64,000 nt of DNA from Micromonospora sp. NBC_01796. GTDB taxonomy: Bacteria; Actinomycetota; Actinomycetes; Mycobacteriales; Micromonosporaceae. The translations under genes and the position numbers were made by a program. Below the pieces are notes generated by a model, which was not told where the DNA came from, did no database searches, and worked only from the letters and a program-made list of their open reading frames with translations. Shown in pieces: positions 1-64,000 of the stretch; the first letter of the stretch is position 1, and every line of letters starts with the position of its first letter. The stretch is taken from contig NZ_CP109078.1 of assembly GCF_035917455.1 (NCBI RefSeq), forward strand, positions 6,990,001 to 7,054,000. Reading direction: 5' to 3'.

Positions 1-25
1 CCTCACGTGTGGGTGCGGGTGGGGG

Positions 26-48658: not shown

Positions 48659-48662
48659 CGGG

Positions 48663-49607
48663 TCACCAGTCGAGGGGCCTGGTCGCGAGCGTTGCCTCGT
48701 ACCAGGCCCGGATGGCCTCGAAGGTCTCCGGCGGCAGCGGCGTGCCGGCGGCGGCGATGCTGCTGTGCAACTGGGCCAGGGACTTGGTGCCGGGGATGAC
48801 GGTCGACACCGCGTCGTAGCCGAGCAGGAACCGCAGCGCGCCGTCGAGCAGGCTCACCCCGTCGGGCAGCAGCGCCCGGAACTCGTCCACCAGCCCCGCG
48901 CGCAGCGCCACGTCGGCGCGGGTCCAGCGCTCGCGTACGTCGGTGAAGACGCTCTCCGCGTGGTACCTGCCGGAGAGCCAGCCGGACTCCAGCGGCACCT
49001 TGACCAGGGTCCCGACACCCCGGTCGCGGGCCCGCCCCATCGCCTGCCACGGTTCCTGGTAGAGGGCGGACATCCGCACCTCGAGGGCGTCCGAGGCGCT
49101 GGTGGTCAACACGGTGTCGACGTCGGCGCCCCAGTCGATCGACGCCCCGTACGCCCGGATCGTGCCCTTGTCCTTGAGCTGTTGCAGGACGCGGTAGTGG
49201 TCGCACCGGCTGCCGTCGATGATCTCCTTCGGTGGGCTGTGCAGTACGACGATGTCGACGTGGTCGACGTTCATCCGGCGGGCACTGCCCTCGATCGACG
49301 CCTCAATGGCGTCGGGCGCCCAGTTGGGGCTGCCGTCGGGGTGGTAGCCGACCTTGGTGCAGATCAGCACCTCGTCGCGGTGTCGGCCGGTCAGCGCCCG
49401 GCCGATGTTCGACTCGCTGCGCCCGTCGGCGTAACCGGGCGCGGTGTCGATGAGGTTGACACCGGCGTCGAGCGCGGCGTGCACGATCCGGACGGCCTCC
49501 GCCGGCTCGGGTCCGTCGGGCCACTGGGCCGAGCGCCCGAGCTGCCACGCGCCCAGCCCGATGGCGCTGACCCGCAGGCCGGTGGTGCCGAAATCCCTGA
49601 TCTGCAT
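48663..49607 (-). CDS. Aldo/keto reductase
   Basis: A 314-residue NADPH-dependent (beta/alpha)8-barrel reductase. Family features: LRVSAIGLGAWQLG, NLIDTAPGYADGRSESNIGRAL (Asp and Tyr of the tetrad), TKVGYH (Lys) and VVLHSPPKE (His), then STVIPGTKSLAQL near the cofactor site. The substrate is unknown. It ends four bases from the convergent NRPS-MFS gene. A tailoring role in the NRPS pathway is possible from position only; the opposite strand argues for a separate transcription unit. Confidence 0.93.
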   Translation of the reverse strand: MQIRDFGTTGLRVSAIGLGAWQLGRSAQWPDGPEPAEAVRIVHAALDAGVNLIDTAPGYADGRSESNIGRALTGRHRDEVLICTKVGYHPDGSPNWAPDAIEASIEGSARRMNVDHVDIVVLHSPPKEIIDGSRCDHYRVLQQLKDKGTIRAYGASIDWGADVDTVLTTSASDALEVRMSALYQEPWQAMGRARDRGVGTLVKVPLESGWLSGRYHAESVFTDVRERWTRADVALRAGLVDEFRALLPDGVSLLDGALRFLLGYDAVSTVIPGTKSLAQLHSSIAAAGTPLPPETFEAIRAWYEATLATRPLDW

Positions 49608-49707
49608 GCCGATATCCCCCCTGGTCGACCGCCGGATGGCGGTGCTGCCAGCGTATCGACGGACGCTGTCGCCCGCCGTCCCGGTTGGGTCCGTCCCGTT
49701 ACAGACT

Positions 49708-49759
49708 GATCAACAGATGGGCACCTTTGGTTGACAGCGGATCATGACTCAACGAAGAT
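49708..49759 (+). promoter_or_regulatory. Promoter region of the second M14 metallopeptidase
   Basis: TTGACA (49731-49736) is followed after 17 bases by GAAGAT (49754-49759), a weak -10. GATCAACAGAT (49708-49718), also found upstream of the first M14 gene, lies just ahead. The leader to the ATG at 49967 is about 200 bases and pyrimidine-rich, with no clear structure. The 359-base gap to the aldo/keto reductase holds nothing else I can support. Confidence 0.45.
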
Positions 49760-49966
49760 CTACTTCGTGCGGAGCGTCTACCTGACTAAGCGGGGTCACA
49801 TCGACCTCCTGCGTGTCGCCAGCGCCGCCTGTCGACGCTCAATCTGACGCCGGGCTTCCCCTTCCCCGCCCGCTGCCGACGTTCTCCCCAATCCCCGTGG
49901 GTCTCCGGCCCTGCGGTGACGTCTGCCCGCGTGCACTGTCCTCTCTCGACAGGAGATCTGTCTTTC

Positions 49967-52420
49967 ATGGTCAGGAAACTCTCGAGGATCGCCGCGGCAA
50001 CGGTTGCCGCGTCGCTCGTCGGCACGATCGCCTGGGCCGGGCCGGTGAACGCGTCCGCGTTGCCGTCCGTGCCTCCGTCCGGCATCGACTTCTGGGGCAT
50101 CACGGGCTTCCCCGTACAGAACGTGCTGCCGGTCTGGGCGGACAACCCGAACGACGCCTCGATCCCGATCGGGGTCACCCCGTACGACGAGATCGCCCCG
50201 AAGCTCAACGCCCTGCAGGCCGCCAGCAACCGGGTGTCCGCCCGGGTCGCCGGCAAGTCCTCCGGCGGATACGACCTGTACGCGGTGACGGTGACCGCGC
50301 CCGAGACCCAGGACGAGGCACGGCGCCAGGAGAACTGGCGGCGGCTGATCGAGAACGAGCCGGCGACGGCGCAGCACGACCGGCGTCTCATCGAGGGCTA
50401 CAAGACCCCGCTGTTCGTCAACGCGAACATCCACGGCAACGAGTGGGAGGGCACCGACGCGGCCCTGCGGGTGATCGAGGAGTTCGCGACCAGCACCGAT
50501 CCCCAGGTCGCGCAGCTTCTGAAGCGCAACCGGCTCGTCTTCAACGTCACCTCCAACCCGGACGGTCGGGTGGCCGGAACCCGGCAAAACGCGGCCGGTT
50601 ACGACCTGAACCGCGACCTGACCATCGTGTCGCAGCCCGAGACCAACCTGATCCGTGAGCTGATCGTCGACACCAAGCCGATCATCACGCTCGACCTGCA
50701 CGGATACGTCAACCCGACGCTGCTGCACCCGAGCACCCCGCCGCACAACGTCAACAATGAGTACGACCTCTACATCAAGCACGGTCTGCCGAACGCGCTC
50801 GCGATCGAGCAGGGACTGAAGGCGCTGGGCTACCCCGAGACGCAGCAGGCGCGGATCCCGTTCCGGGACGACGAGCCCGGCGTCTGGGACGACTTCCCGC
50901 CGATCTACGTACCCTCTTTCGCGATGTTGCAGAGCAGCATCCCGTACACGATCGAGGCACCGCTCAACCCGCGCGGCAACCTCACCCCGGCGGAGAAGCT
51001 TCGCCGGTCGGGCATCAACACCGACGTGCACGAGGTGGCGATCAAGACCTCGCTGCAGTACATCCAGGACCACCGGACCGAGGTGCTGTTCGACCAGGCC
51101 GAGGTCTACCGCCGTGGTGCGGCCGGTGAGCCGCTGCGGGACATCCCGGACGGGTACGTGCCGGGCTGGGGTCCGGAGGACAACTACAACACCGTCTTCC
51201 CGCGCTCGTACGTCATCCCGGCCGGCTCCGGTCAGCACTCCGCGCCGGCCGCGGCCCGTCTCGTCGACCTGCTCATCGGCAGCGGCGGCCGGGTGTGGCG
51301 GGCGAAGACCAACTTCACCGCCAACGGCAAGTCCTACCCCGCCGGCTCGTACGTGATCGACATGCACCAGCCCAAACGTGGCCTGGTCAACTCCCTGCTC
51401 GAACCCGGTGTCGACATCACCGACCGGGTGGACGACCTCTACGCCGGACCGGCCGCCTGGAGCCAGGGGCTGACCTGGGGCGCGACCGTCGACACCCTGT
51501 GGGACCAGTTGCCGGGCGTGGGCCTGGAGCGGGCCTACGACGGCAAGGCCGAGAGTTCGGTGCCGGGCGGTACGCCCGACCTGCGGCTGAACATCCAGGA
51601 CGCGGCCGACCTGCTCGCGGTCAACGCGTTGCTGGACCAGGGGGTCGCGGTCTACCGGCTCGCCGACGGGTCGGTTGTCATCCCGCACACGACCACCAAC
51701 CGCCGGCTCGCCGCCGCCGAGTCCCGTAAGCACGACGTCGCCTTCGAAGCCGCTCCGGCGGGTTGGCAGGGGACCCTGCTGGACAAGGTCGTCGTCGGTT
51801 ACCTGGGTACGGTCGAGGAGCGCGACACCCTGCGCGACATCGGCTTCGAGGCCCGTACGATCACCGCCGCGACCCTGGCCACCACGCTGACCGCCGACGT
51901 CGACGTACTGCTCGTCGGTGCCAACCTCAACCTGGCGAACCTGACGGCGGAGAACCGCGCCGCGCTCGACGCCTTCCTTGCCCGGGGCGGTGGTGTCGTC
52001 GGTCTGGACACCGCCGGGGCGAGCTTCAGCAACGCCGCCGCGCTGCTGAGCGTCACGGCCACCGCGGGTGCCTCCCTGGCCAGTGGTGTGGTCAACATCG
52101 TGAACAGCCAGGGCCCGGTCACCTCCGGTGCGATCCCGCACTCGTTCATCAACCAGCCGGTCTGGTTCACCAACCTCGGTGCCGGCGTCACGGTGGAGCA
52201 GTCCTACACCGCCGACCCGCTGCTGTCCGGCTGGTGGGCGGCGAACGCGGCCGGCACCAACGGTCCGGCCGCCGCGGCCAACCAGGCCAGCATCGTCCGG
52301 GGCGTGACGGCCGCGGGCAACGGTGTCGTGCTCTTCGGTACGGACCCGACGTACCGCACCCACCCCAAGGGGCTGCAACCGCAGCTCGGCCGGGCCATGC
52401 TCTGGGCGGCCCAGCGGTAG
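49967..52420 (+). CDS. Secreted M14 zinc metallopeptidase
   Basis: An 817-residue precursor with a Sec-type signal (MVRKLSRIAAATVAASLVG, cleavage near NASA). The M14 domain has zinc ligands H156 and E159 in HGNEWEG and H245 in DLHG, with NPDGR and YDLNRD substrate segments and a Glu in YTIEAPLNPRG that may be the catalytic base. A second half of about 400 residues resembles that of the paralogue at 25409-28075, including a Rossmann/GATase-like part (DVLLVGANLNLANL). AGGAGA lies ahead of the ATG. It probably trims extracellular peptides or peptidoglycan stems. A strong terminator follows. Confidence 0.9.
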   Translation: MVRKLSRIAAATVAASLVGTIAWAGPVNASALPSVPPSGIDFWGITGFPVQNVLPVWADNPNDASIPIGVTPYDEIAPKLNALQAASNRVSARVAGKSSGGYDLYAVTVTAPETQDEARRQENWRRLIENEPATAQHDRRLIEGYKTPLFVNANIHGNEWEGTDAALRVIEEFATSTDPQVAQLLKRNRLVFNVTSNPDGRVAGTRQNAAGYDLNRDLTIVSQPETNLIRELIVDTKPIITLDLHGYVNPTLLHPSTPPHNVNNEYDLYIKHGLPNALAIEQGLKALGYPETQQARIPFRDDEPGVWDDFPPIYVPSFAMLQSSIPYTIEAPLNPRGNLTPAEKLRRSGINTDVHEVAIKTSLQYIQDHRTEVLFDQAEVYRRGAAGEPLRDIPDGYVPGWGPEDNYNTVFPRSYVIPAGSGQHSAPAAARLVDLLIGSGGRVWRAKTNFTANGKSYPAGSYVIDMHQPKRGLVNSLLEPGVDITDRVDDLYAGPAAWSQGLTWGATVDTLWDQLPGVGLERAYDGKAESSVPGGTPDLRLNIQDAADLLAVNALLDQGVAVYRLADGSVVIPHTTTNRRLAAAESRKHDVAFEAAPAGWQGTLLDKVVVGYLGTVEERDTLRDIGFEARTITAATLATTLTADVDVLLVGANLNLANLTAENRAALDAFLARGGGVVGLDTAGASFSNAAALLSVTATAGASLASGVVNIVNSQGPVTSGAIPHSFINQPVWFTNLGAGVTVEQSYTADPLLSGWWAANAAGTNGPAAAANQASIVRGVTAAGNGVVLFGTDPTYRTHPKGLQPQLGRAMLWAAQR

Positions 52421-52452
52421 TACCGACGGTGCTCCGCTGAGCGGGTGACACA

Positions 52453-52488
52453 GGAGGGCCCGGATGCCGGTCAGCATCCGGGCCCTCC
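52453..52488. terminator. Bidirectional terminator
   Basis: A perfect 15-bp inverted repeat, GGAGGGCCCGGATGC (52453-52467) and its complement (52474-52488), with a six-base loop. It lies between the convergent metallopeptidase (ends 52420) and GST-like gene (ends 52521), so it can serve both. Confidence 0.85.
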
Positions 52489-52520
52489 TCGTCGTACCGA
52501 CCCCGGCCGGGGCCCCCGCT

Positions 52521-53441
52521 TCACGCGGCGGCGCGGACGGCCGGTGCGTGCCAGTCGGGGATCTCCGCCCCGGCGGCGGTGAAGGTGGTGAAGTCGGTGG
52601 TGTCCCGGAACGCGGGCAGGGCGTAGAGGTCCCGGGCGTACGCCCACAGGTGCGGGTACTCGTGCAGGCCGGGGTTGATGGCACGGGTCGCGTTGGGGCC
52701 GACGTCGTAGCGGACCAGGGTCACCCAGAGCCGGATGTCCGCCTCGGTCACCGTCGGTCCGACCAGGTACCGCCGGGTGGCCAACCGTTCGTCGAGTACG
52801 GCGAAGGCGTGGAGCAGCGCTGTCCGGGCCCGTGCGCCGTCGGGGCCCGGCCGGGCGGCGGCACCGACGCCGTGGTTGACCACCGGGTTGAGCCACCCGT
52901 CGAGTTCCTCGATCTCGTCACGGTGGCGCTCCGGATAGGTGTCGACGAGCGGGGTGGCCAGGTGCCGGAAGCTGGTGGCGAAGTCGATTCCGATGGTCTT
53001 GAAGTTGTTGCTGACCACGCCGGCGGTGGCGCGGTCCCAGAGCGTCGGCACCGAGATGTGGCCGTCGAAGCCCTCCTCGGTGGCCTCGTAGGCCTGTCGT
53101 AGCAGGGTGAACCCGTTCACCGGGTCGGGTCCGTACCGTTCGCGGAAGGCCCAGCCCCGGCCGTCCCGGTGGTTGTCCACGTAGGAGACGGTGACGATGT
53201 CTCCCAGTCCGGCGAGGGCGCGGGTGATGGTCACTCGCTGCGACCACGGGCAGAACCACCCCGCGTAGAGGTGGTACCGGCCGGCGCGCGGAGTGAAGCC
53301 GGCGGGGCTGTTGTCGGTGAGGCGGGCCGAGAAGCGGTAGAGGGGTCGTGGGTCGTCGGGCCGGCGGACGATGCGGTACTCGCCGTAGGTGTCGGGATCG
53401 ACGGGCGTGGCCAGCCGGCTGAAGGGTGACAGTCCGGGCAT
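52521..53441 (-). CDS. GST-superfamily protein, hydroquinone reductase-like (YqjG/Xi class)
   Basis: A 306-residue thioredoxin/GST-fold protein. The active-site segment GWFCPWSQRVTITRAL carries the CPW(A/S)xR Cys typical of Xi-class glutathionyl-hydroquinone reductases, and the C-terminal helical domain (YLVGPTVTEADIRLWVTLVR) fits too. Actinomycetes make mycothiol, so the thiol partner may be mycothiol or another thiol rather than glutathione. It is the last gene of the minus-strand block; a sulfur or thiol role would suit its neighbours. A CCTACTC/GGATAGG repeat lies 43 bases upstream. Confidence 0.88.
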   Translation of the reverse strand: MPGLSPFSRLATPVDPDTYGEYRIVRRPDDPRPLYRFSARLTDNSPAGFTPRAGRYHLYAGWFCPWSQRVTITRALAGLGDIVTVSYVDNHRDGRGWAFRERYGPDPVNGFTLLRQAYEATEEGFDGHISVPTLWDRATAGVVSNNFKTIGIDFATSFRHLATPLVDTYPERHRDEIEELDGWLNPVVNHGVGAAARPGPDGARARTALLHAFAVLDERLATRRYLVGPTVTEADIRLWVTLVRYDVGPNATRAINPGLHEYPHLWAYARDLYALPAFRDTTDFTTFTAAGAEIPDWHAPAVRAAA

Positions 53442-53483
53442 GGGATACCTCCGAGGAGTCGGAGCGTTACAACCGGATCAAAT

Positions 53484-53500
53484 CCTACTCACCGGATAGG
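53484..53500 (-). promoter_or_regulatory. Operator candidate upstream of the GST-like gene
   Basis: CCTACTC-ACC-GGATAGG, an imperfect 7-3-7 inverted repeat in AT-richer DNA, lies 43 bases before the start at 53441. The flanks (AAAT and TTTT) suggest that it overlaps a promoter. The regulator is unknown; an Rrf2/CymR-type sulfur regulator would suit the context. Confidence 0.38.
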
Positions 53501-53537
53501 TTTTACGGCCAGGGTCGAGCTGGTCGGCATCGGCGGC

Positions 53538-54050
53538 TCACGGTCGGCCCTCCGAGCCGAACGGCGCCCACGTGGAGTACGGCAACTGGGTCTCGAACGG
53601 CAGGTAGGGCAGGACCGCCCGGTCGGCGTCGAGGTCGTAGCGGGGGTGGTAGCCCAGGTTGAGGTAGAGCGCCTCGGCCTCCGGCTGGCGCGGGCCGGTG
53701 GTCAGCCAGATCCGGCGGTATCCCCGCCGAACCGCCTCGGCCTCCAACTCGCGCATCACCCGGCGGGCCAGTCCCTGGCGGCGGTGCCCCGAATGGGTCC
53801 ACACGCGCTTGATCTCGGCGGTCTCCCGGTCGTACCGGCGGAACGCGCCGCCGGCCACCGCTGACCCGTCGGGCTGGAGCAGCAGCAGGAAGGCGCCGTG
53901 CGGAGGCGCGAACTCCGTCGCCGGGTAGCGGGACATCTCCTCGTTCGGGCCGTACCGGCTCCGGTACTCGTGGGTCAGTTCGTCGAGCAGCGGGCGGGCC
54001 GCCGGGTCGGTCGGGCTGGTGTAGCGGACGGTCAGTTCCCTTGACGCCAT
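53538..54050 (-). CDS. GNAT family N-acetyltransferase
   Basis: A 170-residue acetyltransferase. Motif A is clear: IKRVWTHSGHRRQGLARRVMREL, with the acetyl-CoA loop HRRQGLA, then LTTGPRQPEAEALYLNLGYH. Small GNATs of this kind occur in sulfur-scavenging operons such as Bacillus ytm/snaA, where S-alkylated cysteines are N-acetylated before oxidation. That role is inference from position. It starts 75 bases after the stop of the binding-protein gene, on the same strand. Confidence 0.9.
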   Translation of the reverse strand: MASRELTVRYTSPTDPAARPLLDELTHEYRSRYGPNEEMSRYPATEFAPPHGAFLLLLQPDGSAVAGGAFRRYDRETAEIKRVWTHSGHRRQGLARRVMRELEAEAVRRGYRRIWLTTGPRQPEAEALYLNLGYHPRYDLDADRAVLPYLPFETQLPYSTWAPFGSEGRP

Positions 54051-54125
54051 CGATCAGCTCCGGAGGCTGGACGGGACCGGTTCGGGCGCCGGTCCCGGCG
54101 GTGACACCGGGACCGGCGCGGTGGA

Positions 54126-55106
54126 TCACTTCCGGGGCAGGCCGGGCGGGTTGATCTGGGCGGCGGGGATCGCCTCGCTGCCGAGCCCCCAACGGGACAG
54201 CACCCGGGCGTACGAGCCGTCCTTGATCACCGTGTTGAGTGCGTCGTTGAGCGCCTCGACGAACCCGTTGCCCTTCTTGGTCATCGCCGCGATCTGGGCC
54301 GGCACCTCGCCGCCGCCGGGCACGATTCCGACGATCCTGGTCTTGCCGCTGACCGCGACGTGGTACGCCAGCGCCGGGTTCGGCCCGAAGTACGCGTCGA
54401 TCCGCCCGGAGAGCAGGGCGAGCTGGTAGTCGGCCGGGTTCTGGTAGTAGGTGATGTTGACCGGGGCGAGGCCGGCGGCCTTGTTCTGCGCGTCCCAGCG
54501 CAGCAGCACCTGTTCCTGGTTGGTGCCCGAGCCGACCGACACGTTGAGTCCGGCGATGTCGGCCGGCTTCTCGATCTTGCTGACCTTGCCGTCCGCCTTC
54601 ACCTCCCAGCCGAGCGAGTCGACCCGGTAGGTGGCGAAGTCGTAGATGTCCTTGCGTTCCTCGGTCACGGTGATGTTGGAGAAACCGACATCGTTCTGCC
54701 CGGAGCGCACCACCAGGAACAGGTTCTCCCACGAGGTCGGCTGCAGGTCCAGTTCCAGCCCCAGCACGTCCGCCACCAACTGGGCGATGTCCGCCTCGAC
54801 CCCGATCAGCGTACGGTCGTCGTCGGCGCGGAAGGCCAACGGAGGCGATCCCTCGGCGCTGATACCGACCCTGAGTTTGCCTCCCGCGCCGATCGTCGGC
54901 GGCACCTTGGCCGCGACGGCGTCGACCTTCTGCGCGCGGATCCGTTTCTGGTCCGGGCTGGTGTTGATGACCGCCGCCGCCGAGCCGGACGGATCGGCCG
55001 CCAGCGCGGCGGGTTCGTCGTCGGGCGAGCCGCAGGCGGCCAGGGTCACCAGGGTGGTCAGGGCGAGCACGCTGGCCAGGTGTCGCGATAGCCGGTAACG
55101 CGGCAT
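54126..55106 (-). CDS. Amino acid (cystine-type) ABC importer, substrate-binding lipoprotein
   Basis: A 326-residue extracytoplasmic family 3 binding protein. Lipobox LAACG follows a hydrophobic core; the Cys is the lipid anchor. After a long spacer the two-lobe domain begins (LRVGISAEGSPPLAFRADDD, GVEADIAQLVADVLGLEL, VRSGQNDVGFSNITVTEER and SVGSGTNQEQVLLRW). The combination with an ATPase and one permease and the leader peptide upstream of the operon suggest cystine, S-alkyl-cysteine or a related sulfur compound. It starts 58 bases after the ATPase stop. Confidence 0.92.
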   Translation of the reverse strand: MPRYRLSRHLASVLALTTLVTLAACGSPDDEPAALAADPSGSAAAVINTSPDQKRIRAQKVDAVAAKVPPTIGAGGKLRVGISAEGSPPLAFRADDDRTLIGVEADIAQLVADVLGLELDLQPTSWENLFLVVRSGQNDVGFSNITVTEERKDIYDFATYRVDSLGWEVKADGKVSKIEKPADIAGLNVSVGSGTNQEQVLLRWDAQNKAAGLAPVNITYYQNPADYQLALLSGRIDAYFGPNPALAYHVAVSGKTRIVGIVPGGGEVPAQIAAMTKKGNGFVEALNDALNTVIKDGSYARVLSRWGLGSEAIPAAQINPPGLPRK

Positions 55107-55164
55107 GCGGAACTCCTTCTCTGGGGTGTTCGGGCTGTCGGGAGTACCTGGGGTGGCGGGCGGT

Positions 55165-55938
55165 TCAGAGAACCTTCGCCAGAAACGACCGGGTCCGTTC
55201 GTGCTGCGGCCGGGTGAGCACCTCGTCCGGTGGGCCCTGCTCGACGATCACGCCGTCGTCCATGAACACGACCCGGTCGGCGACCTCGCGCGCGAAGCCG
55301 ATCTCGTGCGTGACGACGATCATCGTGGTGCCCGCCCGGGCAAGGTCCTTCATCACCTCGAGCACCTCACCGACCAGTTCCGGGTCCAGTGCCGAGGTCG
55401 GTTCGTCGAAGAGCAGCACCTTCGGTTCCAGGGCGAGGGCGCGGGCGATCGCGACCCGTTGCTGCTGGCCGCCGGAGAGACGGCGCGGATAGGCGTCCGC
55501 CTTGTCCGCCAGGCCCACCCGGTCGAGCAGCCGGGAGGCGGCCGCCAGCACCTCTCGCCGGGGCCGGCCCTGCGCCGACACCGGTGCCTCGGCCACGTTG
55601 TCCAGCACGGTCAGGTGCGGGAAGAGGTTGAAGTTCTGGAACACGAAACCGATGTGCGTACGCTGCCGCAGGATCTCGCGCTCCTTGAGCTCGCGCAGCC
55701 GGTTGCCGGTACGGCGGTAGCCGATCAGCTCCCCGTCGATGCGTACCGAGCCACGGTTGACCTTCTCCAGGTGGTTGATGCTGCGCAGCAGGGTCGACTT
55801 GCCCGATCCGGACGGGCCGAGGATCACCACCACCTCACCGGTACGCACGCTCAGGTCCACCCCGCGCAGCACCTCCAGCGGCCCGAAGCTCTTGTGGATG
55901 CCGCGCAGCTCCACCATCACCGCGCCGTCGGGGCTCAT
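55165..55938 (-). CDS. Amino acid (cystine-type) ABC importer, ATP-binding subunit
   Basis: A 257-residue ATPase with Walker [11 protein letters not shown]-loop [12 protein letters not shown], signature [15 protein letters not shown] and Walker [15 protein letters not shown], of the GlnQ/TcyC/TcyN class. An extra segment ([20 protein letters not shown]) between Walker A and the Q-loop is typical of TcyN/FliY-associated ATPases. Its ATG at 55938 overlaps the permease stop in ATGA. The much longer in-frame reading to 56763 crosses the permease gene and is not real. Confidence 0.95.
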
Positions 55939-56945
55939 CGGGGCGCCGCCAGGTCGGCCGCGAGCTGGTCCCGTACCGCCTGCCGTTGTCGGCGGGCCGC
56001 CACCACCCGCCCGACCAGTCGGCTCACCCGCTGCAGCGGGGTCGGCGGCAGCGCCCGTACGGCACCGCGGGCGTAGTGCCGCTCGACGTAGTACTGGACT
56101 ATCGACAGGACGGTGGTCAGCAGCAGGTACCAGATGGCGGCCACCAGGAGGAGGGCGATCACCCGTCCATTGCGGGCGTAGATCACCTGGACCTGGTAGA
56201 AGAGTTCGGGGATGGCCATGATGTAGACCACCGAAGTCCCCTTGACCAGGCCGATGATCTCGTTTCCGGCGGTCGGGATGATGGTCCGCATCGCCTGCGG
56301 CAGCAGGATCCGGCGAATCTGCCGGGTGCGGGGGATACCGAGGGCCGCCGCCGCTTCGAGTTGCCCCTGGTCCACCGAGAGAAAGCCGGAGCGGACGATC
56401 TCCGCGCAGTAGGCCGCCTGGTGCAGGGCGAGTCCCAGGGTCGCGGCGGTCATCGGGCCGATCAGGTCCATGGTGCCGACGTCGAAGAACGACGGACCGA
56501 ACGGAATCCCGAAGGAGATCCGGTCGTAGAGCAGCGCCAGGTTGAACCAGAACAGGAGTTGCAGGATCAGCGGCACCGACCGGAACATCCAGACGTAACC
56601 CCAGGCCACCGCCTGGAGCAACGGGCTCGCCGAGAGTCTCATCAGGGCGATCACGGTGCCGAGCAGGAATCCGAGCACGATGCCGAGCACGGTCAGCCGC
56701 AGGGTGACGCCGACCGCCCGGAGCACGGTCTCGTAGAACAGGTACTGGCCGACGAAGTGCCACTCCCAGGCCGGGTTCGTGATCAGCGCGTTGGCCGCCA
56801 TGGCCAGCAGTACCAGCGTCACGGCGGTCGCGGCCCAGCGCCAGGGATGGCGGGCCGGCACCACCTTCAGCGGTTCGTCGACGGGGCCGTCGGGTGCCCG
56901 TGTGGTGGTTGCCAGGGCCGCCGGGGCGGGTGGCGGGGCGGTCAT
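55935..56945 (-). CDS. Amino acid (cystine-type) ABC importer, permease
   Basis: A 336-residue permease, longer than usual because of a Pro/Ala-rich N-terminal tail of about 30 residues and a basic C-terminal tail. The core has [40 protein letters not shown] and the EAA coupling region [20 protein letters not shown], followed by [16 protein letters not shown] single permease gene implies a homodimer. ATG at 56945 has GGAGG ahead. It is the first large gene of the operon, after a leader peptide frame and 153-base spacer. Confidence 0.93.
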
Positions 56946-57057
56946 GGTGACCTCCAGGGATGGCCTGCGGGCGCGTGACCGGGTGGGTGGTCCACGGGGC
57001 GGCGGGCGCCGGATACGGCGGGAGGGAAGACGCGACGGTCCGGTGGATGGCTCAGTC

Positions 57058-57114
57058 GCGGTGGAGCCGAGCGCGGGAGGCTGTGTCGCCGCCACCGCTC
57101 AGCGCGGACACCGC
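57058..57114 (-). promoter_or_regulatory. Attenuator-like alternative pairings
   Basis: On the minus strand GCGGTG (57109-57114) covers the Cys codon TGT region of the leader frame, GCGGTGG (57092-57098) starts right after its stop codon, and CCACCGC (57058-57064) can pair with either. Ribosome stalling at the Cys codon would change which pairing forms. No T-run marks a rho-independent terminator, so translational or rho-dependent control is as likely. Confidence 0.42.
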
Positions 57115-57179
57115 CCGCCCGCGTATCGAACGAGATCGATCACGAGGCGAGCGGTCAGGAGGACCCCGGTGCGCCGCAT
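57099..57179 (-). CDS. Leaderless cysteine leader peptide (26 codons)
   Basis: The frame encodes MRRTGVLLTARLVIDLVR followed by YAGGRCPR. It matches the form of the short leader peptides annotated before sulfur genes in actinomycetes: hydrophobic start, R-x-x-x-DL-x-R core and Cys near the end. The usual His before Asp is Ile here. The predicted -10 ends six bases before the ATG, so transcription would start on the ATG itself and the peptide would be translated without a ribosome site. It probably senses cysteine supply through translation of its single Cys codon. It lies ahead of the amino acid importer operon. Confidence 0.72.
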   Translation of the reverse strand: MRRTGVLLTARLVIDLVRYAGGRCPR

Positions 57180-57185
57180 GTACTG

Positions 57186-57214
57186 ATATTGATCAGTGGA
57201 ATAAGGCATGTCAA
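57186..57214 (-). promoter_or_regulatory. Sigma-70-like promoter of the cystine-type importer operon
   Basis: On the minus strand TTGACA (57209-57214) and CAATAT (57186-57191) are separated by exactly 17 bases, close to the consensus for the main sigma factor. The expected start site falls on the ATG of the leader peptide at 57179. TGATATTGATCA, an imperfect palindrome, covers the -10. An inverted repeat CTGTCT/AGACAG (57243-57258) lies about 30 bases upstream and may be an operator. Confidence 0.75.
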
Positions 57215-57319
57215 CGGCCGTCCACATTGTGGTACGCGTTGTCTGTCTGAGTAGACAGTGAGAGTTGAGCTGGACCAATGCCTGATCATCTCCCACAGAC
57301 TTAATAGGAAATGATGATG

Positions 57320-59005
57320 TTACGAGGGGCTCGCTATTGAGCCCGGTACGGCGGCCTGGTGACCCGGAATGGCCGCGAGAAGCTCGCGGGTGTACGCGTG
57401 GGTCGGGTGGTCGAAGAGTTCCGTTGTGGTGGCGGTCTCGACGATCCGCCCGGCCCGCATCACCGCGACCCGGTGGGCGATCTGGCGGACCACCGCGAGA
57501 TCGTGCGAGATGAACAGGTACGCCACCCCGGTGGACGCCTGCAGCTCGGCGAGGAGTTCCAGCACCTGTGCCTGTACGGACACGTCCAGCGCGGACACCG
57601 GCTCGTCGCAGACCACGAGTTCGGGGGAGAGGGCGAGTGCGCGGGCGATCGCGACCCGTTGCCGCTGACCGCCGGAGAGCTGCGCGGGTCTGCGGTCGAG
57701 CACCGAGACCGGGAGCGCGACCCGTTCGACGAGTTCGCGGGCCCGTGCCCGGCGGGACGCCCGGTCACCGATCCCGAACACCCGCAGCGGCTCGATGATC
57801 ACCTCCCGGATCGAGAACCGGGGGTCGAGTGACGCGTACGGGTTCTGGTACACGAGTTGGGCACGGCGCCGCAGTCGGCGCAGCGCCGCACCGCGAGCCC
57901 CGGTGATGTCGTCACCGTCGAAGAGGATCCGCCCGCCGTCCGGCTCCGCGAGTCGCAGCACCAACCGTGCCGTGGTCGACTTGCCCGAACCGGACTTCCC
58001 GACCAGGGCCAGGGTCTCGCCCCGGTTGATCGTGAAGCTCACCCCGTCCACGGCCCGCAAGCTCCGCCGACCGGCGACCGTCCCCGGCAGGGGGAAGTCC
58101 TTGACCAGGCCCTCGACCGTGACCAGCGGCGCCGCCTGCACCGGTGCGCCCGGAGGCCCGCTGCGGGCCGGTGGCGCCTGACGTGCGGCAGCCAGACTCG
58201 GCGCGCTGCGCAACAGTTGGCGGGTGTACTCGTGGGCGGGGTCCCGCAGGACCTCGCGGGTGGGCCCGGTCTCGACCACGCGTCCCCGTGACATCACCAC
58301 GAGCCGTTGCGCCCGGTCGGCGGCGATACCCAGGTCGTGGGTGACCAGCAGGACAGCCGTGCCGAGTTCCTCGGTCAGACTCTGGATGTGGTCGAGGATC
58401 AGCCGCTGCACGGTGACGTCCAGCGCACTGGTCGGTTCGTCCGCGATGATCAGACGGGGTCGGGCCGCGATCGCGATCGCGATCAGCGCACGTTGGCGCA
58501 TCCCACCGGAGAGTTCGTGCGGATACTGCCGTGCTCTGGTGGCCGGATCGGACAGGCCCGCCCGGTGCAGCAGTTCGACCGCGTCCAGGGCCGCCGACCG
58601 GCGGTTGCCCAGCCCGTGTACGCGCAAAGCCTCCGCGACCTGCTCGCCGATGCGTTTCACCGGGTTGAGCGACACCGCCGGGTCCTGCGGGATGAGGCCG
58701 ATCTGGGCGCCCCGCAACGTTCGCAGTTCCCGCTCGGACAGGCCGGTGAGGTCACGCCCGGCGAACCGGATGGTGCCGCTGTCGACCTGCCCACCGGCCG
58801 GTAGCAGGCCGATGATGGCGTGCGCGGTTGTACTCTTGCCCGAGCCCGACTCGCCGACAACGGCGACCACCTCACCCGGCCGGACGTCGAAGTCGACGCG
58901 CTCGACCGCCCGTACCGGTCCCGACCGCGACTGGTACGAGACGCGGAGTTGCCGGACCTCCAGCAGGTTCCCGCCCCCGTCCGAGGCATCGTGTCGTCCC
59001 GTCAT
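57320..59005 (-). CDS. Dipeptide-type ABC importer, fused double ATPase (DppD-DppF)
   Basis: A 561-residue protein with two complete nucleotide-binding domains. The first has Walker [10 protein letters not shown] near residue 51, signature [15 protein letters not shown] and Walker [15 protein letters not shown]. The second has [24 protein letters not shown] and [14 protein letters not shown]. It replaces the separate DppD and DppF proteins and would drive uptake through the DppB/DppC permeases. ATG at 59005 overlaps the DppC stop (ATGA). The AT-rich region beyond its stop (57180-57319) holds the next operon's promoter. Confidence 0.95.
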
Positions 59006-59931
59006 CGCTGGCTCGCCCACTCCCCGTCGACGGCCCGGGCGATCCGGTTCGTGGCCAGCACCGTCGCCGCGACCGCCAGGCCCGGAAGCGTCGAGAGCCA
59101 CCACGCGTTCGCCAGGTAGTTGCGCCCGGTCGAGATCAACGTTCCCCATTCCGGTGCGGGTGGCGCGGCCCCGTAGCCGAGGAAACTCAGCGACGACACG
59201 GCCAGGATCGCGGTGCCGAAGTCGAGGGTGGCGAGCACCAGCACCGGCCCCATCGCGTTCGGCAGCACGTGCCGCAGCAGGATCGAGTGCCAGCGCGCCC
59301 CCGAGGACCGGGCCGCCTCGACGTAGGTGGCGTGCCGTACGCGCAGCACCTCGGCCCGCATCACCCGGGCGAAGCCGGCGACACTGGCGATGCCGACCGC
59401 CACGGCGACCTTCACCGTGCCGAACCCGAGCGCGGTGACCAGCGCCAGGGAGAGGAACAGGGCGGGGATGGCGAGCAGGACGTCGACGACCCGCATCAGC
59501 ACGTCCTCCACCCAGCCGCCGACGAACCCGGCGACCAGGCCGATCGCCCCGCCGACGACAAACGCCACCGCGACCGCGATCAGGGTCGCCTTCAGCGACA
59601 GCGCCGCTCCGTGGACGACCCGGGCGTACACGTCGCGGCCGATCTCGTCGGTGCCGAACCAGTGCTGACCGCCGGGGCCCTGGAACCTGTCGGTGGGCAC
59701 ACCCAGCAGTGGATCGCGCGCGGTGAACAGCGTCGGCCAGAAGGCCGCCAGCACCACCAGCGTGACAACCACGAGGGAGAGGACGAGCCCGGGACGTCGC
59801 AGCAGGAACCGGCCCAGCCGGCGCAGGTCGAGGCCACGGGCCGCTTCCCGCCCGGTGGGTTCCGACCGGCTCCGGGAGCCCGGCTCCGGCACGATGTTCA
59901 ACGCCGGGTCGCCGACGACTGTCTGACTCAC
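59002..59931 (-). CDS. Dipeptide-type ABC importer, permease (DppC-like)
   Basis: A 309-residue permease. The soluble N terminus is followed by [20 protein letters not shown], the family segment [20 protein letters not shown] and the EAA region [20 protein letters not shown], with [20 protein letters not shown] after it. These are typical of DppC/OppC/NikC. GTG at 59931 overlaps the DppB stop (GTGA). The substrate of this system is not given by the permease; the adjoining monooxygenase suggests an organosulfur compound or peptide. Confidence 0.95.
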
Positions 59932-60890
59932 ACGAAGCTCCTTCGCCGGGTGGCCGAGGCCACGACGATCCGTGGGTCGAAGAGCGGGTAGACCAGGTCG
60001 ACGGCGAGATTCGCCAGAACGAAGACCAGCGCGCCGAACACCACGACGCCCTGGACCACGGGTATGTCCTGAACCGTCACCGCGCTGACGGTCGCCCGGC
60101 CGATGCCGTTGCGGGAGAAGACGGTCTCCACCACCACGGAACCGGCCAGCAGATTGCCCACCAGCAGCCCGACGATGGTGAGCGCGGGCAGGGCGGCGTT
60201 GCGCAGGGCGTGCCGCAGGTGCACCCGCGCCCGTCCCGCTCCCTTGGCCCGCGCGGTCTGCACGTACGGCTCGTCGAGCGCGGTGAACAGGCTCTTCGCC
60301 AGCACCTGGGCCAGCAGCGCGCCGGTCGGCACGGCGAGCGTGACCGCCGGCAGGATCAGGCTGGCGAGGCCGTCGTTGCCGAACGCCGGCAGCAGCCGGA
60401 ACCGGAAGGAGAAGAGCTGGACGAGCATCAGCCCGACCCAGAACGTCGGCAGTGACACACCGAGCGACGGCAGCGACAGCAGCAGTTGCCGCAATGCCCG
60501 CCCGGCGGTGTACGTGGCGGCCAGCGCCAGCCCCGTACCGAACACGACGGCCAGGACCAGGGCGGCACCGGTCAGTACGAGCGTCTGCGGCAGGGCGTCC
60601 CCGATCACCGACGTGACCGGTTGACCGGTCGCGACGGAGTTGCCGAAGTCCCCCTGCACCGCCCGACCGAGATAGTCGGCGTACTGGACCAGCACCGGTT
60701 TGTCGAAGCCGTACTCCCGTTTCAGCGCCTCGAGTTGGGCCGGGTCGACGGAGACCTGGTCGAGGCCGCCACCGGCCATCGCCGACACCGGGTCACCGGG
60801 CAGGAAGTCCAGCACGAGGAAGGACAGGGTGTAGGCCGCCCAGAGCACCACCACGGCCTGTGCGAGTCGGCGGATCACGTAACGACGCAC
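59928..60890 (-). CDS. Dipeptide-type ABC importer, permease (DppB-like)
   Basis: A 320-residue permease with the DppB N-terminal pattern [21 protein letters not shown] and LDFLPGDPV. The EAA region [20 protein letters not shown] is preceded by an extended loop, and the chain ends with the helix near [17 protein letters not shown]. It pairs with DppC. It starts 37 bases after the stop of the binding protein gene in the same transcription unit. Confidence 0.95.
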
Positions 60891-60927
60891 GGTCGGTTCC
60901 CTCCGTCCGCTGGTCCTGTTCGGTGCG

Positions 60928-62559
60928 TCAGCTCTTCCAGGTGTCGTGCAACTGGATCCGGCTCGACGCCTCGAAGTCCAGGTCGTGCACCTTCTTGGAC
61001 ACCCCGAGGGCGGTGGTGAGCTCCACCACCGGGATCACGTGGGCGTTGCGTACGATCAGGTCCTGGGCCTGGTTGACCAGCGCCTGCCGTTTGGCCGGGT
61101 CGACCGTCGCGGCCTGCTCGGTCAGCACCGGATCCAGCGCGCCGGCAGCCAACCGGTACGTGTTGGCCAGGGTGGTCGAGTAGGTGCTGCGCAGGATGTC
61201 CGGGTCGGCTCGGGTGATGTTTCCCCAGAGCGCGTCGAAGTCGCCGGACTGCTGCACCTGGGTGATCTGGGCGATCTGGAGTTCCTTCAGGGTGATCTCG
61301 ACACCCACCGCCTTGAGCTGCTGCTGGATCAGCTCGAGTGTCGGCTGGTTGGTCGCCGCGTTGGCGAACCAGCCGACGGAAAGGCTGAGCCGGGTGCCGT
61401 TGCGGGTCCGGACACCGTCGCCGCCGACCTGCCAGCCGGCCGCGTCGAGCAGCGACTTCGCCTTCGCCGCATCGAAGGTGAGCTGCCCGCTGACATCGCT
61501 GTGGTACGGCGTGGTGTGCGCCAGGATGCTGGTGGCCGGTTTGCTGCCGGTGGGGTAGACGGTGTCGACGATCTGCCGCCGGTCGAGTGCCACCTGGATC
61601 GCCTGCCGTACGGCGACGTCCCGCAGCAGGGGCTTCGAGTTGTTCAGGCCGAGGTTGAACACCACGCCCGGATTCGCCCGTGTCTGGAGGTTGACGGCCC
61701 CGCCGCCCTTCAGCGCGGCCTCGTCGGCGAGGCTGACGCTGCCGATGGCGTCCACCTGCCCCGACACCAGGCTCCCGGTACGCACACCAGCCTCCGGAAC
61801 GACGGTGAACAGCACCTTGTCCAGGTACGCCTCACCCGACTTGCGCCACAGCGACGAACCCCAGTTGTATCCCTTGCGCTTGACCAGCGTGATCGACTGG
61901 TTGGCCACGTACCCGTCGAGGGCGAAGGGGCCGGAGCCGACGACGCCGTCGGTGCACCGCTGGTCCGGTGTCTTCCGTACGCTCGACCCGGCGACCAGGC
62001 CGAGCGAGAAGGTCGAGGTGGCCTGGAGGAACTGGGCGTTGGGCTGTTCGAACGAGACAACCGCGGTGAGGTCGTCCGGCGTTTCGGTGCCGACGTATCC
62101 GCTGAGGTAGCCGGTTGCCAGGCTGGCCTTCGCGCCGAGTTTGCGGGCCGCGTCGAAGTTCTCCCTGACCGCCCGGGCGTTGACCGGTGATCCGTCGCTG
62201 AAGGTGACACCCGGCCGGAGGTGGAAGGTGAAGGTTCTCGCGTCCGCGCTGACCTCCCAGCGTTCCGCGAGCCAGGGCACGATCTTTCCGGTCGAGGGGT
62301 CCTGGTCGGTCAGTGAGTCGACGATCTGGCGCAGGGCGTAGATGGTGTCGTTGCTGGCGACCTGATGGGGGTCGACGCAGCCGGCGTACGAGCCGACGGC
62401 GAAGGTCAGGGTGCCCCCGGATCTGGGGGTGCCGTCCCCGGTCCCACCGTTGCCGGTGGTGTCGCCGTCACCCGAACCGCAGGCGGTCAGTGCGAGGGCG
62501 GCGACGATGGTCAGCACGAGCGACCCGAGGGCGCGCCCCGATCGCGGCAGTGATCTCAC
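60928..62559 (-). CDS. Dipeptide-type ABC importer, substrate-binding lipoprotein
   Basis: A 543-residue family 5 extracytoplasmic binding protein (DppA/OppA/NikA-like). Signal and lipobox LTACGSG anchor it; a Gly/Asp-rich spacer follows. Typical segments are LAERWEVSADARTFTFHLRPGVTFSDG, broken here as ERWEVSADARTFTFHLR and PGVTFSDGSPV, then VGSGPFALDGY and VAVRQAIQVALDRRQIVD. GTG at 62559 has AAGGGA ahead and overlaps the stop of the monooxygenase gene (GTGA), so the two are co-translated. Longer upstream readings cross the monooxygenase and are shadows. Confidence 0.94.
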   Translation of the reverse strand: MRSLPRSGRALGSLVLTIVAALALTACGSGDGDTTGNGGTGDGTPRSGGTLTFAVGSYAGCVDPHQVASNDTIYALRQIVDSLTDQDPSTGKIVPWLAERWEVSADARTFTFHLRPGVTFSDGSPVNARAVRENFDAARKLGAKASLATGYLSGYVGTETPDDLTAVVSFEQPNAQFLQATSTFSLGLVAGSSVRKTPDQRCTDGVVGSGPFALDGYVANQSITLVKRKGYNWGSSLWRKSGEAYLDKVLFTVVPEAGVRTGSLVSGQVDAIGSVSLADEAALKGGGAVNLQTRANPGVVFNLGLNNSKPLLRDVAVRQAIQVALDRRQIVDTVYPTGSKPATSILAHTTPYHSDVSGQLTFDAAKAKSLLDAAGWQVGGDGVRTRNGTRLSLSVGWFANAATNQPTLELIQQQLKAVGVEITLKELQIAQITQVQQSGDFDALWGNITRADPDILRSTYSTTLANTYRLAAGALDPVLTEQAATVDPAKRQALVNQAQDLIVRNAHVIPVVELTTALGVSKKVHDLDFEASSRIQLHDTWKS

Positions 62560-64000
62560 GAGATTCCCTTTTCTGTGGAGGACGGCGTGGAGGTCCGGGC
62601 TCGCGTACCTCCGGACGGCGCCGGTGTGACGGTGGGCAGCGGGGGCAGGTCGAGGTGTTCGCGCAGGGTGCTGCCCTCGTACGCGGTCCGGTAGGCGCCA
62701 CGCTCCTGCAACTCCGGCACGAGTTTGTCGACGATCTCTTCGACCGATCCGGGGATCAACTGCGGGATGATGTTGAACCCGTCGACGGCACGGGTGCGGA
62801 CGTAGCGGACCCACTCGTCGGCGATCCGCCCCGGCGTCCCGACGAACAGGTCGTGTCCGGGTGCGACCTCGATGACCAGGTCGCGGATGGAGAGTTTGCG
62901 CTGCTCGGCCAGCGCACGCCAACGCGCGATGACGGCGAGCTTCCCGGTGCGCAGCTCGATCGGAATCGTGCCGCGGGACGGGTCGAGCTCGTCCGGCGTC
63001 GGGTCGATGTCCGGCAGCGGCCCGTCCGGGTCGTAGCCGGAGAGGTCCTTGCCCCAGTACTGCTCCAGGAAAGCGATCGCTCGGGGCCCGCTGGTCTGCT
63101 CGCGCCTGATCCAGTCCGCCCGCTCCCGTGCCTGCGCCTCGGTGTCGCCGAGGACGACCGACGTGCCGGGCAGGATCCGCAGCGAGTCGGGCGCGCGTCC
63201 GTACCCGGCCAGCCGGGTCCGGAGGTCCCGGGCGTACGCCACTGCCTTGTCGTACGAGGTGTTGGCGGAGAAGACCACGTCGGCGTGGCGTGCCGCCAGG
63301 TCCCGCCCACCGGGCGAGTCCCCGGCCTGGAACAGCACCGGCCGGGTCTGGCGGCTGCGCGGCAGCGTGGCGGTTGCCCGCAGCCGGACCAGATCGGTGT
63401 CCCGCTCGATGCCGGGAGCGCTGCCCGGCCGCAACCACGATCCGTCGTCGCCGTAGGAGGCGATCGCGTCGTCGTCCCAGGACGCCCAGAGTGCCTCGGC
63501 GGCCTCGACGAACTGGCCGGCGCGCTCGTAGCGCCGATCGTGGGCCAGCCACCCGCCGTGCCGGAAGTTCTCGCCGGTCCAGGCGTTGTCGGTGGTGACG
63601 ATGTTCCAACCGGCCCGACCCGCCGAGACGAGATCGAGGCTGGCCAGCCGTCGGGCCAGGTCTGCCGGGTAGTTGTACGTCGTGTTCTGGGTGGCGACCA
63701 GACCGATCCGGGTGGTTGTCGCGGCCAGCGCCGAGAGCTGGGTGATCGCGTCCGGCCGGCCGGCGACGTCGAGGGCGTGCACTCGTCCCCGGTTCTCCCG
63801 TACGCGCAGGCCCTCGCCGAGGAAGAACGCGTCGAACAGCCCGCGTTCGAGGGTCTGTACGACCTTGACGAAGGTGTCGATGTGGGTGTGCGGGGCGGCG
63901 TCCGGATCGGTCCAGACGATCTGGGGGCCGACCCCGGTGTAGAACAGTCCCAGGTGGACGCGGGCTTTCGGGTCGTACCCGAGGGGGTTCGGTTGGCTCA
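62556..64000 (-). CDS. LLM class flavin-dependent monooxygenase, NtaA/SnaA/DszA type (5' end at window edge)
   Basis: A bacterial luciferase-like FMNH2-dependent monooxygenase; at least 480 residues are in the window. The reading frame continues past the ATG at 63782 to the right edge: SQPNPLGYDPKARVHLGLFY and LERGLFDAFFLGEGLRVREN are in frame, and the final bases TG-AGC suggest that the start codon lies only one base outside. Conserved segments NTTYNYPADLARRLASLD, GRAGWNIVTT, VLFQAGDSPGGRDLAARHAD and VVLGDTEAQARERAD match the NtaA/SnaA/SoxA(DszA) subfamily, which oxidises nitrilotriacetate, S-alkyl-cysteines or organosulfur rings. It is co-translated with the binding protein, so it probably acts on the imported compound. 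Confidence 0.93.
   Translation of the reverse strand, partial: SQPNPLGYDPKARVHLGLFYTGVGPQIVWTDPDAAPHTHIDTFVKVVQTLERGLFDAFFLGEGLRVRENRGRVHALDVAGRPDAITQLSALAATTTRIGLVATQNTTYNYPADLARRLASLDLVSAGRAGWNIVTTDNAWTGENFRHGGWLAHDRRYERAGQFVEAAEALWASWDDDAIASYGDDGSWLRPGSAPGIERDTDLVRLRATATLPRSRQTRPVLFQAGDSPGGRDLAARHADVVFSANTSYDKAVAYARDLRTRLAGYGRAPDSLRILPGTSVVLGDTEAQARERADWIRREQTSGPRAIAFLEQYWGKDLSGYDPDGPLPDIDPTPDELDPSRGTIPIELRTGKLAVIARWRALAEQRKLSIRDLVIEVAPGHDLFVGTPGRIADEWVRYVRTRAVDGFNIIPQLIPGSVEEIVDKLVPELQERGAYRTAYEGSTLREHLDLPPLPTVTPAPSGGTRARTSTPSSTEKGIS

Follow-up and report, generated by a model that had tools for sequence, protein, structure and literature searches.

The window analysed here, a 64,000-nt stretch of the Micromonospora sp. 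NBC_01796 genome (contig NZ_CP109078.1, positions 6,990,001 to 7,054,000), carries on its minus strand a 26-codon open reading frame, MRRTGVLLTARLVIDLVRYAGGRCPR* (57099..57179), which probably encodes a leaderless cysteine leader peptide, one that would govern the permease–ATPase–binding protein(–GNAT) operon behind it through ribosome-mediated attenuation. Evident from the DNA are the geometry of a putative promoter, a conserved peptide frame, a fixed place for the cysteine and a position ahead of an importer that appears to be of cystine type, and from these we infer that the frame is translated, that ribosomes stall on it in response to cysteine shortage, and what the importer carries. Transcription would start on the ATG at 57179 and the 26 codons would be translated at once; when cysteine is ample the ribosome would clear the frame and the downstream genes would be damped, and when Cys-tRNA is short it would stall three codons ahead of the stop, its A site occupied by the Cys codon, and expression of the importer operon would be released. 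The relay that we favour over masking of the ribosome-binding site (RBS) is Rho-dependent termination within the C-rich, G-poor interval behind the frame, which a stalled ribosome may block.

The focal peptide has a DLxR core, whose Asp is D15, and nine residues further on a single Cys codon, third from last (TGT, residue 24, 57108..57110, minus strand). Its residues 6–21 match positions 1–16 of the 19 positions of the NCBIfam profile NF042934 (‘putative leader peptide’, cis_reg_atten) with 20.5 bits and an E-value of 2.6e-4, short of the 27 bits that the curated cut-off demands, and in the genome-wide scan the frame is a weak match (18.7 bits, E 0.023). A leave-group-out profile, built without the focal peptide, its counterpart in a genome from another genus of the Micromonosporaceae (G038) and six members of the -RCPR subgroup, nevertheless finds the focal peptide with 28.4 bits, as against a best score of 10.8 in 80 reversed loci, so that homology to the NF042934 family holds independently of the focal subgroup; one peptide kept in the training set (L045) had itself been found via the focal peptide. 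The window genome has 24 NF042934 matches at E ≤10, of which four exceed the cut-off and seven, including the focal one, are credible in our judgement, and 10 of 14 control genomes likewise have matches at E ≤10, none of them over the cut-off. Among 148 genomes of the class, 99 match at E ≤1e-4 and 96 over the cut-off. The family and leave-group-out profiles, together with the frame conserved in G038, bear out the original prediction of a leaderless leader of the actinobacterial DLxR/Cys form. That prediction had also remarked on the loss of a His from the core, and Val does stand in its place (D-2), but this is not unusual: in the 116 peptides considered (118 collected, two without a core by pattern) the residue is His in 77, Val in 20, Ala in 14 and something else in 5. 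The ending -RCPR is common to leaders that mostly precede cysteine dioxygenase genes in the family of the window genome. This kind of cysteine leader peptide is known, and the focal peptide is a divergent form of it, with one Cys and no His in the core.

Ahead of the frame, on the same strand, lie a TTGACA hexamer (57209..57214) and a -10-like CAATAT (57186..57191) separated by 17 nt, with the ATG 35 nt past the first base of TTGACA and a predicted transcription start upon it. The elements are where they had first been described, and their arrangement is beyond chance, since the pattern TTGACA-16..18-NAATAT-5..7-ATG has one match in the 64 kb and none in 100 shuffles. When the leaderless pattern is loosened to TTGACN...NANNNT...RTG, the window yields exactly two matches, at 57214 and 49731, where 0.30 would be expected and at least two were reached in 5 of 100 shuffles. 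Because both of these matches head frames of one and the same DLxR peptide family, there is good evidence that the leaderless geometry is real. Among 65 leaders from importer loci, 39 have TTGA[C/T] 33–39 nt before an in-frame start, a placement seen at 0.4% of random places. A simple promoter scan does not call the 57214–57186 site, the -10 being weak. As far as can be judged from sequence, the predicted geometry fits the leaderless first ORF of polycysteine attenuators. Palindromes over the -10 (57197–57182) and at 57257–57244 were considered as operators and rejected; both strings are absent from the G038 locus (L029).

The conservation of frame and Cys codon on which the original prediction had relied holds in G038, where the leader MHRAAEFLVARLVIDLVRYAGGRCPR stands before an orthologous importer (permease 86% identical to that of the window) behind TTGACA and GAATAT with the identical 17-nt spacer. 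Over codons 10–26 the two leaders differ by five silent changes and zero replacements, and over codons 1–9 by five silent and eight replacement differences. This conservation is narrow, however: among 30 importer loci examined in the family, the window's included, only those of the window genome (G000) and G038 have a leader within 700–800 nt, and the leader before the importer is therefore a local arrangement in the Micromonosporaceae. The importer matches at E ≤1e-80 in 63 of 250 family genomes, with no match at this level in G001 and G002 of the window's own genus. A search of the same 250 genomes found 20 with a leader match at E ≤0.01, again counting the window's, and 14 of these 20 leaders precede cysteine dioxygenase genes as recognized by their first residues, with all three that were tested matching Pfam CDO_I.

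More widely, a same-strand leader was found upstream of the importer in 39 of the best 80 of 470 actinomycete loci, and in 35 of the 39 no gene is called on the opposite strand between the two; four genomes of this set were taken as overlapping the family set, and the reversed sequence of the same 80 loci gave a best leader score of 12.3. Within these best 80 of 470, the leader is present in Streptomyces (24/32), Pseudonocardia (7/8), Planobispora (2/2), Nonomuraea (2/4), Streptosporangium (1/3), Microbispora (1/9) and the single loci of Umezawaea and Terrabacter, and absent from 12 other genera and from all five Micromonosporaceae loci. Some distant leaders among the 39 may belong to other operons; in L121, L147, L154, L155, L182 and L184 no gene is called in the interval, at most 300 nt long, that separates the leader from the permease match. 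One Streptomyces locus (L188) has the order leader, alkanesulfonate-monooxygenase-like protein, GNAT, binding protein and permease, followed further along by a second binding protein and another monooxygenase. Several loci of Streptomyces and Pseudonocardia likewise have GNAT genes, matched by BLAST, after the leader and before the permease.

That the leader heads an importer operon, as first proposed, agrees with the gene order of the window, and the best models make the operon a putative cystine-type importer. The permease (55935..56945, minus strand, as are the following genes) has the cystine ABC transporter permease as its best NCBIfam model (149.9 bits, below the cut-off of 300), the ATPase (55165..55938) L-cystine TcyN (330.3 bits, below 406), and for the substrate-binding lipoprotein (54126..55106) cystine is the best of the substrate-binding models (94.2 bits, below 312). 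Cystine is thus the best substrate-specific model for all three parts, each time under threshold. Against the binding protein, over its C-terminal part, a serine/threonine kinase model outscores cystine; by sequence, those relatives of the binding protein that have a known structure bind glutamine, arginine and other amino acids. A GNAT acetyltransferase gene (53538..54050) adjoins the importer in both the window and G038. The leader, the sub-threshold models and the neighbouring genes point to a sulfur compound, likely cystine or an S-substituted cysteine, and the earlier wording that the leader identifies the substrate as sulfur-related was too strong; a sulfur substrate and cysteine-responsive control are nonetheless well supported, if indirectly. 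A second amino-acid importer of the window genome (G000:C1:8343796, L090) has a leader of its own, WWRRHVDLCRTSTMLCRQYG, and adjoins a gene for a PLP enzyme of Cys/Met metabolism.

Relatives of the focal leader in the window genome head genes for a luciferase-like monooxygenase, a rhodanese-type sulfurtransferase and an M14 peptidase, and another heads flavin reductase and NMT1-type binding protein genes. In the window itself the plus strand carries a second leader of the family, VRSVYLTKRGHIDLLRVASAACRRSI (49767–49847), whose TTGACA lies at 49731 and which is followed by a gene for an M14 carboxypeptidase (ATG 49967); pairs of leader and gene like this one were also seen in G001 (L101), G002 (L108) and G038 (L102). 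Palindromes like TTCCTATC...GATAGGAA cover some leader promoters (among L009, L112, L115 and several of L030–L041), and in some loci of the same set CCTAT...ATAGG lies between the leader and the cysteine dioxygenase gene; these motifs are possibly operators of a sulfur regulator. Near one leader of the window genome with such a motif there is a gene for an Rrf2-family regulator (L088, 12628–13149). In L047 and L044, leaders ending in -RCP head a gene whose protein has the DNA-binding domain Trans_reg_C as its sole Pfam match. The leader at G000:C1:7068074 (L088) and its relative in G002 (L115) precede a gene for a Cons_hypoth698 membrane protein, with a 53-codon frame in between in L088.

The place of the cysteine raises the possibility that the peptide does more than present a codon. 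A profile truncated ahead of the Cys column has 70 matches in the 80 importer loci, all in frames ending within 25 codons, and 61 of them have Cys at D+9, the remainder having three stops, three Gly and three Ser at that position; counted by distinct strings, Cys is at D+9 in 38 of 45. The count is partly circular, because the training peptides had first been found by a profile that included the Cys column, and the loci are related. In Pseudonocardia, three minus-strand leaders (L125, L145, L164) end in DLCRTASAV* and so have their stop codon at D+9; in L125 and L145 the gene that follows encodes a luciferase-like monooxygenase. A fourth peptide (L105) likewise has a stop at this position. By eye, the Streptomyces leaders of L158, L171 and L190 have Gly at D+9 and Cys at D+5, and further downstream L158 and L171 encode a protein resembling luciferase-like monooxygenases. 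Replacements are several-fold rarer than silent changes both in 22 distinct leaders from Streptomyces and one Microbispora (pS 0.27, pN 0.046) and in 10 distinct -RCASARCPR leaders (pS 0.35, pN 0.059).

The family as a whole shares no RNA structure within the frame (92 leaders, mean z 0.07); the in-frame hairpin is strong in the focal frame (z -2.1) and not in G038 (z 0.15). In 15 leaders z falls below -1.5, and 13 of these are of the Streptomyces importer type, whose favoured hairpin has a helix that pairs in 99% of cells. Of 23 Streptomyces-type leaders, 18 had a found gene start; alignment A1 used 17 and alignment A3 used 14, with L173, L191 and L195 excluded for divergence or insertions. 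For the 14 leaders, a structure of one in-frame helix and others past the stop fits 96.6% of cells and includes four pairs in which both partners have changed; it was derived from the same alignment on which it was scored, and no counterpart is shown in the window. Taken together, the spacing, the rarity of replacements and the lack of a family-wide RNA structure favour a putative role for the peptide itself beside the Cys codon. It is possible rather than probable that this role is nascent-peptide arrest, in which the DLxR core in the exit tunnel would stall the ribosome at the D+9 codon and the peptide, and not just starvation, would do the sensing. The stop codons at D+9 in Pseudonocardia would suit such an arrest, whereas the circularity of the D+9 count and the hairpin of the Streptomyces importer leaders, where constraint on the RNA may account for some of the conservation, speak against it. 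Arrest of this kind would be a layer added to attenuation and not a replacement for it.

For the attenuation that we prefer, a relay is needed between the leader and the permease gene, whose start at 56945 lies about 150 nt of untranslated sequence beyond the leader stop. A simple scan of 56900–57330 found no intrinsic terminator, which sets the leader apart from classical terminator attenuators; Rfam gave nothing at gathering threshold in 48000–64000, and there are no tRNA genes in the window. The untranslated interval of 143 nt (56956..57098, minus strand), up to the GGAGGT of the putative permease RBS (56950..56955, minus strand), is rich in C (0.50) and poor in G (0.27). The same bias is found in 50 intervals between leaders and a called gene 60–400 nt downstream, with a mean C-G of 0.186 versus 0.061 in 156 other intergenic stretches. 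Since Rho loading sites likewise are C-rich and G-poor, these intervals are such as Rho would favour; the signal is to be taken as a lead, because the controls are upstream regions not matched for transcription and the loci share ancestry. Alternatively, a stalled ribosome might free the permease RBS from mRNA structure, the mechanism reportedly used by the polycysteine leaders of M. smegmatis; the polycysteine leaderless sORFs of mycobacteria are said to have been studied by Canestrari in 2020. Folding does predict the permease RBS to be mostly paired (unpaired 0.18 in G000 and 0.29 in G038), yet opening the RNA as far as a ribosome on the Cys codon, or on the stop, leaves predicted access unchanged in either genome, and in G000 the pairing is local, because access stays low even when folding begins 34 nt before the permease ATG. 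We therefore regard this relay as doubtful. The pairings of CCACCGC with the Cys codon region or with the sequence just past the stop, which had been proposed as attenuator-like, did not survive folding, with helix probabilities of at most 0.007 and 0.0, respectively. The complementarity exists as letters and no more often than by chance: leader and gap contain 8 perfect 7-nt inverted matches, and shuffles average 5.5, with 23% reaching 8.

The evidence weighing against the attenuation model includes the single Cys codon, the folding results on RBS masking and the CCACCGC pairings, the importers of the family that mostly have no leader, and an NF042934 score under the cut-off. The last two would also suit a chance ORF, with the promoter serving the permease from a long leader RNA. 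We consider this highly improbable, given the leave-group-out match, the selection on the frame and the fact that both matches of the leaderless pattern in the window are leaders of the family. More speculative, and rather unlikely in its full form, is the broad reading that DLxR leaders are widespread cysteine-sensing arrest peptides with D+9 as the decision codon (mostly Cys, a stop in a few), in which the stall shields a C-rich stretch from Rho and the focal leader is a His-less version heading a cystine-type importer. Leader-peptide attenuation would add a cystine-type importer operon of several actinomycete genera to those apparently under cysteine leader-peptide control; leader and importer together yield a testable guess at the substrate, and the near-fixed spacing makes it testable whether the ribosome merely awaits Cys-tRNA or the nascent peptide takes part. 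A literature search on actinobacterial cysteine arrest peptides gave nothing on DLxR leaders by title among the matches listed, and one for the leader motif strings and terms gave unrelated papers only. New here are the nearly fixed Asp-to-Cys spacing, the selection on the peptide without a family-wide RNA structure, and the C-rich, G-poor gap.

The focal peptide resembles the NF042934 family in its core, x-V/I-D-L-x-R, and in a Cys at equal spacing, and differs from it in scoring under the cut-off, in having Val for His and in ending in -RCPR. In three genomes of the same order, the NF042934 profile found leaders that read VSARLE(P/L)MLTKRRAVDLCR(V/I)AG and then have five or six Cys codons, and one of these leaders precedes a rhodanese-type gene; because these polycysteine leaders carry DLxR too, the single-Cys and polycysteine forms share one core. 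Shell et al. (2015; PMC4633059) describe polycysteine leaderless sORFs in mycobacteria, one kind of which lies upstream of cysA2, and translation attenuation by polycysteine leaders is outlined in PMC9031893 and PMC13236596. The focal leader is like the mycobacterial sORFs of PMC4633059 in its predicted leaderless geometry and in the sulfur-type operon that probably follows it, and unlike them in having one Cys codon instead of the contiguous run of polycysteine attenuators and in heading an importer operon. The cysteine leaders of Seliverstov et al. (2005; PMC1262725) also have Cys codons near the stop and no terminator; Rho was suggested as their relay in a prediction that its authors called ‘rather weak’, and for which the C-rich gaps are measurable support. 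Those leaders, in contrast to the focal one, have runs of Cys codons and precede cys/cbs operons of Mycobacterium, Propionibacterium and Bifidobacterium. As for the operon, the yxe (scm) operon of B. subtilis, according to PMC9706529, breaks down S-(2-succino)cysteine, and compared by gene set the Streptomyces L188 operon is like it in combining monooxygenase, GNAT, binding protein and permease, whereas the operon of the window comprises no more than importer and GNAT, and other monooxygenase genes lie close by.
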